Of a stretch of DNA of 63,009 nt, positions 1-63,009 are shown in pieces (the first letter of the stretch is position 1; the number at the start of each line of letters is the position of its first letter). The position numbers and the translations under genes were made by a program. Below the pieces are notes generated by a model. That model was given only the letters and a program-made list of their open reading frames with translations. It made no database searches and had not been told where the DNA came from. This DNA is from Enorma burkinafasonensis (GTDB lineage: Bacteria > Actinomycetota > Coriobacteriia > Coriobacteriales > Coriobacteriaceae), in assembly GCF_902150035.1 (NCBI RefSeq), contig NZ_LR597510.1, positions 1-63,009 of the forward strand, written 5' to 3'.

Positions 1-127
1 CATCTCCACCATTCCTTCAACTGGGAAAATGCCGCCCCCGGGGCCCGGATAGGACCTCGGGGGCGTTCGGTTAACTGCGGGAGCGTGCCGTCAGCTCAAT
101 GTGTTCGGTTGGGATCGGAAATCAACC
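1..127. repeat. Left arm of a perfect 127 bp terminal inverted repeat
   Basis: Positions 1-127 are the exact reverse complement of 62883-63009. Identity stops abruptly: base 128 no longer pairs with base 62882. The arm holds, on the minus strand, the last 11 codons and stop of the metallophosphoesterase gene found whole at the other end, plus its terminator hairpin (33-40 with 58-65). No reading frame continues leftward across 127/128: in the phosphoesterase frame a TAG stop sits immediately next to the boundary. This arm is therefore a detached gene tail, not a second gene. It may be a real genomic inverted repeat or an assembly-graph end, since 127 is a common assembler k-mer length. Confidence 0.95.
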
Positions 128-147
128 TACGAAAGCTAATCGCGAGG

Positions 148-217: not shown

Positions 218-1396
218 ATGATCGATTTCCGCAACCCATATACGCCAGGTGCGGGCGTCATGCCACGGTACTTAGCCGGACGCAGTGACCTCGTCGATAG
301 CGCCCGACAGCGCCTCCAGGCTGTTTCTGAGGGTTACCAGGCGCGATCTGTCATCTACTACGGCCTGCGCGGGGTGGGGAAGACAGTCCTTCTCAACGCG
401 GTCGAGGAGGAGGCCGATAAACTCGAGGTCCTTTGCCGCCATATCGAGGTCAAGGAGGACGGCGATCTCACCAAAACGTTAGCGAGCGCATCGAACGCCT
501 TCGTGGTGAGCCTGAGCGCATTCCAGGCTGCGAAGAGCTGGCTCAACAGGCTCGCATCGGTTGCCAAATCGTTCAGCGCTACTTGGAATCCTGCAGACAA
601 CACGCTATCGCTCGGTCTCAAAGACGCCGCCCTCACCACGGCGACGGCTGGAACCGGTGATCTGTCGAACGACTTGACCCAGCTGTTTGTGGAGCTCGGG
701 AAATGCGCGCGGCAATGTGGGAAGACCATCTGCTTCTGCGTCGACGAAGTCCAGTACGCTCGCAAAGAGGAGCTGGAGGCGGTCATGACGGCCCTCCATC
801 GCACGAGCCAGCTCAACCTCCCCATCATCTTCTTCTGTGCCGGCTTGCCGCGGATCCTCAAAGATGCGGGCGATGTCAAGTCGTATTCCGAGCGCCTCTT
901 CGAGTTCATCGAGGTCGACTCGCTGAGCGCGAGCGCTGCCGCCGAGGCGATCGTCGAGCCGGCCAAGCCGTTCGGCGTGGCGTATGACGAGGACGCGGTC
1001 GAGCTCATCGTCCAGGAGACCGCCGGGTATCCGTATTTCATCCAGGAGATGTGCGCGACGATTTGGGAGCGCTGCGACGGGCGGCGCATCACCGCAGACA
1101 ACGTCGCCGCCAACATCGAAGAGACCAACAAGAGGCTCGACAAGGGGTTCTTCCTCGTGAGGTACAACCGCTGCACGGCGCGCGAGCAGGAGTTCCTGCA
1201 GGCTATGGCATCGTGCGGCGAGCTGCCGTGCACGATCGCCAACGTCGCGAAGGCGATGGGGCGCAAGGTCACGGCCATCAGCCCCTTCCGCGGCAAGCTC
1301 ATCAACAAGGGTCTCATCTACGCTACGGGAAGAGGGGAGATCGATTTCACCGTTCCGCGATTCGATGCCTTCCTCAAGCGCGTGCAGGGGATGTGA
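218..1396 (+). CDS. AAA family ATPase (Orc1/Cdc6-like ATP-binding protein)
   Basis: A 392-residue cytosolic P-loop ATPase. Walker A GLRGVGKT is at residues 49-56, Walker B ICFCVDE at 171-177, and a sensor-like strand (LPIIFFCAGLPR) at 201-212. The C-terminal ~80 residues look like a winged helix. This layout fits the stand-alone AAA ATP-binding proteins distantly related to Orc1/Cdc6, whose function is mostly unknown; some belong to mobile or defence contexts. It starts at ATG 218 after GGAGA. The first half uses less GC-biased codons than the neighbours and the leader is AT-rich, which suggests acquired DNA. It stands alone: the next gene belongs to sugar transport. Partner and substrate cannot be named from sequence. 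Confidence 0.75.
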   Translation: MIDFRNPYTPGAGVMPRYLAGRSDLVDSARQRLQAVSEGYQARSVIYYGLRGVGKTVLLNAVEEEADKLEVLCRHIEVKEDGDLTKTLASASNAFVVSLSAFQAAKSWLNRLASVAKSFSATWNPADNTLSLGLKDAALTTATAGTGDLSNDLTQLFVELGKCARQCGKTICFCVDEVQYARKEELEAVMTALHRTSQLNLPIIFFCAGLPRILKDAGDVKSYSERLFEFIEVDSLSASAAAEAIVEPAKPFGVAYDEDAVELIVQETAGYPYFIQEMCATIWERCDGRRITADNVAANIEETNKRLDKGFFLVRYNRCTAREQEFLQAMASCGELPCTIANVAKAMGRKVTAISPFRGKLINKGLIYATGRGEIDFTVPRFDAFLKRVQGM

Positions 1397-60268: not shown

Positions 60269-62227
60269 ATGCTCGATGATTACCGCAAGGCCCGCAGGCG
60301 CGCGCAGAAGCGCTTCCAGGATGACGTCTCGGCGGGCAGGTACCCGTACCCGCCCGCGCTCGACGACATCCTGAAAGGGGAGGGCTACCAGGGCGAGATC
60401 CCCATGGGCACCATGGAGATCGACATGGAGCTCGTCGCCGGCACGCGCACGCGGGGCCGGCAGAACAGCTTCTCGGCAGACTTCATGCCGCTGCCGGAGG
60501 CCTCCTCCGAGTTCGCGATGAAGTGGAGCGACCTCATCGACGCGCAGCGCGCTGAGGGCATCCGCGAGCCGATCGTCGCCTTCGAGTTTCTGCAGCGCTT
60601 CTACGTGCAGGAGGGCAACAAGCGCGTATCGGTCCTGCGCTACCTGGGGCAGCCCACGATCCTCGCTAACGTCACGCGCGTGATCCCCATGCCCTCCGAC
60701 AGCAAGGCGTTTTGCGTCTACCAGGAGTTTGCACGGTTCTACGACGTGGCGCCCGTCTACGGCATCGTGCTCGAGGAGGAGGGCGCCTACGCCCGCCTCG
60801 CGGCGCTTTGCGGCCACGACCTCGAGACTCCCTGGCCCGAGGATGACGTGCGCTCGCTGAGGAGCGCCTTCGACGCCTTCTCGGTCGCCTTCAGGAAGCT
60901 CGGCGGCGCGGCCACGGGCATCACGGCGGGCGAGGCCTTCCTCATCTACCTCAAGATCTACGGCTTCGAGGCGGCCTCCTCGGACCTGCCGTCGACCGTC
61001 GAAGCGCACGTCAAGGCCATCTGGGGCGAGTTCGTGGTCTCGCGCGACGGCGGCAGGGTCGCCTACCTCGAGGATCCGAGCTCGTTCAGGCTCCCCATCA
61101 TCCCCGAGATCAAGCACATCTACAAGCAGGCCATAAGCCTCAAGCCCTTCCGCGCGTCGTTCATCTACGAGTACGCGCCCGAGACCGACGGCTGGACGGC
61201 CCTGCACGAGCGCGGCCGCCTCGTGCTCGAGCGCAAGCTGGGCACGACGGTCGAGACGGAGGCCTACCGCGACTGCCTCGCGGACGCGGCGTTCGACCGC
61301 GCGGTCGAGCGGGCCGACGCGCGGGAGGCGGACCTCATCGTCACGGTGTCGCCGACGCAGATGGGCCAGGCGCTGCGCGGGGCGGTGCGCCATCCGGGCC
61401 GCGCGTTCATCAACTGCTCGGTGAGCCTCTCGCACAGCGCCGTGCGCACGTTCAGCGGCCGGCTGTACGAGGCGAAGTTCCTGCTCGGCGCGCTGGCGGC
61501 GAGCATGGCGGACAACCATCGGGTAGGTTACGTCGCCGAGACCCCGGTCTTCGGCAGCGTGTCCGAGATCAACGCCTTCGCCATCGGCGCCCAGATGGTC
61601 GACCCGGCGGCCACGATCTTCCTCAAGTGGTTCTCGGCCAAGGACTACGACTGGAAGCGCGAGCTCGCCGACGACGACGTGCGCATCGTGTCGGCGCGCG
61701 ACTACCCCGACCCGGCCGCCCCCGCCGAGGCATGGGGCCTCTACCGCGTGGAGTCCGACGGAACGACGACGCACCTCGCGGAGCCCATCTGGAAGTGGGG
61801 GCGCTACTACCAGCTCATCGTCCAGTCGATCCGCAACGAGACCTGGCGCAAGGAGGGGAGCGCGCGAGCGGGGGAGGCCCTCAACTACTGGTGGGGCCTG
61901 AGCGCGGGCGTGCTCGACGTACGCCTGTCGAGCGAGCTGCCGCGCGGCCAGCGCGTGCTCATCGAGCTTTTGCGCCAGTCGATCCTCACGCGCCGGCTCG
62001 ACCCGTTCGCGGGCGAGCTGCGCAGCTGCGAGGGCGTCGTGCAGGACGAGCGCGCTGGCCGCCTGCCGAGCGAGCAGATCGTGCGCATGAGCTGGCTCAA
62101 CGAGAACGTGGTGGGACGCCTCCCCGAGCAGTGCGAGCTCACGGACGACAGCCTCGAGAAGGTCGAGGTGAGCGGCCTCATACCGCTCGATGTCGCACGG
62201 CTGCCCAAGGCGAGGCGCACGGTATGA
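60269..62227 (+). CDS. Fusion protein: ParB-like domain plus BMP (basic membrane protein) ligand-binding domain
   Basis: A 652-residue protein with no signal peptide or helix, so cytosolic. The basic N-terminus (DDYRKARRRAQKRF) leads to a ParB-like region with EGNKRVSVLRYLG at about 115-128. Residues ~295-460 match the BMP/Med nucleoside-binding fold: SFIYEYAPETDGWT, ADLIVTVSPTQMG, GRLYEAKFLLGALAASM, INAFAIGAQMVDP. A ~190-residue tail of unknown fold follows. BMP proteins normally are surface lipoproteins of nucleoside ABC importers; a cytosolic fusion is unusual. Its stop overlaps the phosphoesterase start (ATGA). GTG/ATG alternatives exist; ATG 60269 follows GGGGAGCG. Confidence 0.75.
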   Translation: MLDDYRKARRRAQKRFQDDVSAGRYPYPPALDDILKGEGYQGEIPMGTMEIDMELVAGTRTRGRQNSFSADFMPLPEASSEFAMKWSDLIDAQRAEGIREPIVAFEFLQRFYVQEGNKRVSVLRYLGQPTILANVTRVIPMPSDSKAFCVYQEFARFYDVAPVYGIVLEEEGAYARLAALCGHDLETPWPEDDVRSLRSAFDAFSVAFRKLGGAATGITAGEAFLIYLKIYGFEAASSDLPSTVEAHVKAIWGEFVVSRDGGRVAYLEDPSSFRLPIIPEIKHIYKQAISLKPFRASFIYEYAPETDGWTALHERGRLVLERKLGTTVETEAYRDCLADAAFDRAVERADAREADLIVTVSPTQMGQALRGAVRHPGRAFINCSVSLSHSAVRTFSGRLYEAKFLLGALAASMADNHRVGYVAETPVFGSVSEINAFAIGAQMVDPAATIFLKWFSAKDYDWKRELADDDVRIVSARDYPDPAAPAEAWGLYRVESDGTTTHLAEPIWKWGRYYQLIVQSIRNETWRKEGSARAGEALNYWWGLSAGVLDVRLSSELPRGQRVLIELLRQSILTRRLDPFAGELRSCEGVVQDERAGRLPSEQIVRMSWLNENVVGRLPEQCELTDDSLEKVEVSGLIPLDVARLPKARRTV

Positions 62228-62919
62228 GGATCCTCGCGATCTCGGATGTCGAGGAGGCGTGGCTCACCGACCGCTACGACCGCGAGCGCATGGCGGGCGT
62301 CGACGTCATCGTGTCGTGCGGCGACCTCGCGGCATCCTACCTCGAGCACATCGTGACCCTCGCCAACGTCCCTTTGCTCTACGTGCCGGGCAACCACGAC
62401 ACGGCCTACGCGCGCCACGCCCCCGAGGGTTGCGTCGACATCGACGGCTGCATCGCCACGTACCGCGGGCTGCGCTTCATGGGGCTTGGCGGCTCCGTGC
62501 GCTACAACGACCGCGTCTACGGCTACACCGAGCAGGAGATGCGCTGGCGCGCGACCAAGCTGTCGCTCATCGCCCGCATGTCCGGCGGCATCGACGTCTT
62601 GGTGACCCACGCGCCGGCATACGGCCACGGCGACCTCGGCGACCTGCCCCACCGGGGCTTCGAGGCGTTCAACGCGGTCCTCGACGCGCTCGCCCCCGAC
62701 ACCATGGTCCACGGCCACGTGCACCTGGAGTACGGGCGCATCGCGCGCGTGAGCAGGCACGCGAGCGGCACGCGCATCGTCAACGCCTGCGGCTCGCGCG
62801 TCTTCGAGGTGCCGGACGCGCCCGGGGCCGACCCGCGCGACTGCTCGCTTGCCGTGCGCCGCGTGGCGCGCGGCGGGTTGGTGGTTGATTTCCGATCCCA
62901 ACCGAACACATTGAGCTGA
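62224..62919 (+). CDS. Metallophosphoesterase with altered first metal motif
   Basis: A 231-residue calcineurin-like phosphoesterase. Motifs in order: ISDVE (Asp8, Glu10; the usual D-x-H reads D-x-E), SCGDL (Asp34), PGNHD (Asn57, His58), VTHAP (His129) and HGHVH (163-167). The segment GLGGSVRYNDRVYGYTEQEM is shared by a subgroup of uncharacterised proteins. It is translationally coupled to the ParB-BMP fusion gene. The last 11 codons and stop are inside the right arm of the 127 bp inverted repeat. Substrate unknown; a cyclic or modified nucleotide is possible given the partner. Confidence 0.85.
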   Translation: MRILAISDVEEAWLTDRYDRERMAGVDVIVSCGDLAASYLEHIVTLANVPLLYVPGNHDTAYARHAPEGCVDIDGCIATYRGLRFMGLGGSVRYNDRVYGYTEQEMRWRATKLSLIARMSGGIDVLVTHAPAYGHGDLGDLPHRGFEAFNAVLDALAPDTMVHGHVHLEYGRIARVSRHASGTRIVNACGSRVFEVPDAPGADPRDCSLAVRRVARGGLVVDFRSQPNTLS

Positions 62920-63009
62920 CGGCACGCTCCCGCAGTTAACCGAACGCCCCCGAGGTCCTATCCGGGCCCCGGGGGCGGCATTTTCCCAGTTGAAGGAATG
63001 GTGGAGATG
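62883..63009. repeat. Right arm of the 127 bp terminal inverted repeat
   Basis: Exact reverse complement of 1-127. It begins inside the 3-prime end of the phosphoesterase gene, covers its stop at 62917-62919 and its terminator, and runs to the end of the window. The repeat may continue beyond the window on both sides. Confidence 0.95.
62945..62984 (+). terminator. Terminator after the phosphoesterase gene
   Basis: CGCCCCCG (62945-62952) pairs perfectly with CGGGGGCG (62970-62977) with further GC-rich pairing in the 17 nt loop, followed by GCATTTT. The same hairpin occurs inverted at 33-65 in the left repeat arm. Confidence 0.8.

Follow-up and report, generated by a model that had tools for sequence, protein, structure and literature searches.

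Why should a 63-kb contig begin and end with the same 127 bases in opposite orientation? The window, that is, the whole stretch of 63,009 nucleotides analyzed here, comprises one entire contig (C35) of the Enorma burkinafasonensis draft genome, which consists of 2,234,109 bases in 48 contigs. The first-pass annotation described a perfect 127-bp inverted repeat closing the window, and direct comparison within the window bore this out: bases 1-127 are the exact reverse complement of bases 62883-63009, and the match between the two arms stops at base 128. A chance origin is excluded, because the 127-mer occurs 23 times in the genome. As detailed below, both arms are ends of a multicopy insertion sequence (IS), and the inverted repeat is real sequence trimmed by software, not a special switch.

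The arms are ends of a multicopy insertion sequence

It had been suggested that the parent genome be searched for further copies and for the length of the repeat outside the window. Among the 23 occurrences of the 127-mer, 22 were full length and one was 126 bp long. In 15 cases the sequence made up the outermost 127 bases of a contig and in one case the outermost 126 bases, and in the remaining seven it lay 208 bases inside the contig end. These seven copies therefore extend 208 bases further, forming 335-bp IS ends that include the 3' portion of a reading frame and whose last 127 bp are 100% identical to the window arm. All 23 copies have the same orientation relative to the contig end, and the flanking DNA beyond their CAACC tip is different at each of them. 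A multicopy 127-mer that sits at contig ends and has differing flanks has the appearance of a mobile-element end in a short-read assembly. The window contains two such right ends, the first of which is followed by a gene that lies outside the IS:

1..127, + strand: right-terminal 127 bp of IS30-family copy A, transposase direction +, with the remainder of the IS off the contig (23 genome copies, unique flanks, full identity to the 335-bp IS ends)
218..1396, + strand: AAA ATPase gene (AAA_16, by domain match), just inside the left insertion
62883..63009, - strand: right-terminal 127 bp of IS30-family copy B, transposase direction - (exact repeat, multicopy, unique flanks)

The left end of the IS was found in 21 places in the genome, every one of them at a contig end, where it was cut to 127 bases (17 ends), 126 bases (3 ends), or 124 bases (1 end). 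The IS interior was sought in the assembly and not found; thus, no complete copy was seen in the E. burkinafasonensis draft. The left end (e.g., at the right end of contig C47) contains a long near-perfect palindrome (CCCACATTCATCCGCACATGTGCGGATGAATGTGGG) with a strong predicted fold, located upstream of the transposase start.

Assignment of the element to the IS30 family

Judged from its sequence, the element is an IS30-family insertion sequence, by both transposase and anatomy. The seven longer ends match the end of an annotated Collinsella aerofaciens IS30-family element (NZ_OY725717.1, transposase WP_320677881.1) at 91%. Identity between the two elements is ~91% across the last 335 bp and 98% across the left 127 bp. 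The transposase of this element is recognized by the NCBIfam model NF033563 (IS30 family) with a score of 104.6 bits (E=7e-30), the cut-off being 80 bits. The IS30-family DDE transposase is thus assigned via a complete relative, to which the only part of the gene assembled in the Enorma draft, its 3' end, aligns. The terminal inverted repeats, typically ~20-30 bp in this family, are imperfect, with the left and right tips matching at 17 of the first 27 positions, and the direct target duplication, the length of which varies within the family, is 13 bp. The C. aerofaciens element has the same tips as the Enorma IS and a 13-bp duplication at two of its three copies; it differs by a few percent divergence and by its length of 1636 bp. 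A hairpin is predicted near the right end:

62945..62977, + strand (the same at 33-65, - strand): predicted subterminal hairpin of the IS right end, from folding

The C. aerofaciens element retains the predicted stem and has a different loop; perhaps the hairpin acts as a read-in terminator.

Contiguous genomes of same-family relatives carry whole elements of 1636-1638 bp with the same termini. Nine elements of 1638 bp are present in one such genome (G034), all nine with 13-bp duplications; a second (G016) has three elements of 1636 bp, two of them with the duplication; and a third (G028) has six copies of differing lengths, all with the duplication. Together, 17 of the 18 complete copies in these three genomes are flanked by a 13-bp duplication. 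The copy without it (G016, C1:698500-700500) may mark a rearrangement at that site. In Collinsella sp. AK_207A, contigs were also found to start exactly with the identical 127 bp, and in C. aerofaciens D40t1 this sequence lay 29 bases in from contig ends.

With IS30 of Escherichia coli, the Enorma element shares the family, as defined by the transposase model, and imperfect terminal repeats. However, IS30 duplicates 2 bp of its target (PMC9333248), in contrast to 13 bp here; thus, the element is not IS30 itself. ISMfau-2 of Mycoplasma faucium, which has an IS30-like transposase, is flanked by direct repeats of 19-29 bp (PMC11062135). It resembles the Enorma IS in having long, locus-specific direct repeats, but their length is variable, whereas that of the Enorma IS is fixed at 13 bp. 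Our literature search found no paper on IS30 elements with 13-bp duplications.

Target duplications identify two separate insertions

We compared the flanks of the 21 left ends with those of the 23 right ends. For 19 of the 21 left ends, the flank had exactly 13 bp in common with that of a right end, with one partner each at that length. When the flanks were moved at least 3 bases off the IS as a control, the pairs vanished, save for a single pair at one of 57 offsets. A search of the 19 sites for a consensus target motif revealed only weak preferences (no more than 0.73 bits per position). Two left ends (C23L and C3L) and four right ends (C45L, C30L, C16R, and C13L) were unpaired in this comparison; IS-adjacent deletions, IS-IS recombination, and contigs absent from the draft are possible causes. 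Both arms of the window were paired, the left (C35L) with contig C3 through TACGAAAGCTAAT and the right (C35R) with contig C26 through ACCAACCCGCCGC:

128..140, + strand: 13-bp target duplication of copy A, with its second copy at the right end of contig C3
62870..62882, - strand: 13-bp target duplication of copy B (sequence as on the - strand), with its second copy at the right end of contig C26

Because the arms pair with two different contigs, they represent two separate IS insertions in opposite orientation. This bears on the proposal that the repeat is purely an artefact, in which a single true copy gave rise to two arms through a fold-back chimera or a contig looping through the same graph node. 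In its favor, the arms are as long as the largest common k-mer. However, 21 further copies of the arm exist in other contexts, and each arm has its own 13-bp duplication, common to a different contig, which is the decisive argument against a fold-back chimera. We therefore rejected the chimera, the separate duplications linking the arms to C3 and C26, and consider an artefactual origin of the repeat to have almost no chance of being correct.

The right insertion replaced the end of a phosphoesterase gene

According to the first-pass annotation, the right arm was the native tail and terminator of a phosphoesterase gene, and the left arm was a copy detached from it. The gene in question runs into the IS:

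62224..62919, + strand: metallophosphoesterase gene, the last 11 codons and stop of which come from the IS (native end GGLVG-stop, here GGLVVDFRSQPNTLS-stop)

On the one hand, the reading frame does enter the right arm and stop inside it, and a hairpin follows. On the other hand, the native end of the gene, GGLVG-stop, is found on contig C26, past the common 13 bp; when C35 was joined to C26 after removal of one duplication, this native end was restored, with a tRNA-Leu gene beyond it. In addition, the phosphoesterase-tRNA-Leu region is uninterrupted in a relative (G002; 75% identity over query 9-800), both flanks of the right insertion are adjacent in G001, and the arm sequence occurs at 21 further places next to unrelated DNA. 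The native end on C26, the uninterrupted region in G002, and the adjacent flanks in G001 show that the right arm is not native, and this candidate was rejected; we see practically no likelihood that the right arm is a gene tail and the left arm its copy, both being multicopy IS ends. The IS thus swapped the phosphoesterase tail GGLVG for GGLVVDFRSQPNTLS and left the metallophosphoesterase domain (residues 1-188) intact.

The length of the arms reflects the assembly

In de Bruijn assembly, the final k bases of a repeat form the start of a unitig leaving it. Consequently, each arm has a biological inner boundary (127/128), namely the tip of the IS, and an outer boundary determined by software. 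This outer cut probably corresponds to the assembler k-mer, and from the recurring cut length we infer that the genome was assembled at k = 127. In SPAdes, the largest k-mer is 127 and contigs overlap at their ends (PMC5481147). Thus, the earlier suggestion of an assembly effect, in which a contig enters and leaves the same graph node at k = 127, holds for the length and position of the arms and fails where it invoked a fold-back chimera, given the arms' own duplications and different partner contigs.

It is almost certain that two IS30-family copies in opposite orientation flank the 63 kb and that the assembly broke at them. In this scenario, two copies of one ~1.64 kb element, which we infer to be full length, lie on either side of the 63-kb stretch with their right ends facing inward, and each insertion duplicated 13 bp of its target. 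The assembler would have been unable to span the ~23 near-identical copies, so that contigs were broken there, and the k = 127 IS bases left on contig ends would make the window seem closed by a perfect inverted repeat.

Opposed copies and inversion of the 63-kb block

For a flip of the 63 kb, the available homology would consist of two whole IS copies of ~1.6 kb, rather than of 127 bp. IS-IS recombination could in principle flip the block, as with any pair of IS copies in opposite orientation. Between about 985.7 and 1064 kb, G001 is collinear with the window, beyond which C26 carries on in the expected direction. G001 appears to be ~8 kb longer than the window at each of two points, about 11.8-12.4 kb and about 57.9-58.0 kb. 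A tRNA-Arg gene at the end of C3 has a relative at G001 985,009-985,086, immediately beyond the left limit of the window's relatives and in the opposite orientation. This tRNA-Arg(TCT) beside the left insertion (contig C3, about 30.0 kb; L146:19673-19749) lies on the opposite strand relative to the window genes in G001 (C1:985009-985086). None of the C3 proteins matched when compared with the G001 stretch at 950-1090 kb. The strand switch of the tRNA and the lack of C3 protein matches in G001 suggest that an older rearrangement at the tRNA probably preceded the IS insertion.

Could homologous recombination between the opposed copies make them a switch that inverts the 63-kb block? Opposed ~1.6 kb copies presumably present on both sides would permit it, but simple insertion into the unflipped order agrees with both the target duplications and the G001 collinearity, and we regard such a switch as very unlikely. 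The target duplications give the order at insertion; they are silent on later flips, because contigs broken at an IS are identical in either orientation.

Terminal inverted repeats of assembler-k length should prompt a check for multicopy IS ends first, which here removed a false lead. Where IS copies have broken an assembly, matching target duplications offer a means of rejoining the contigs. It is unlikely that a Coriobacteriaceae clade of the IS30 family, with an unusually long and strictly fixed 13-bp duplication, has opposed copies that allow large chromosome blocks, such as these 63 kb with the dcw cluster, to switch orientation. The finding is an ordinary one, apart from the small specialist point that this IS30 clade makes a target duplication fixed at 13 bp.
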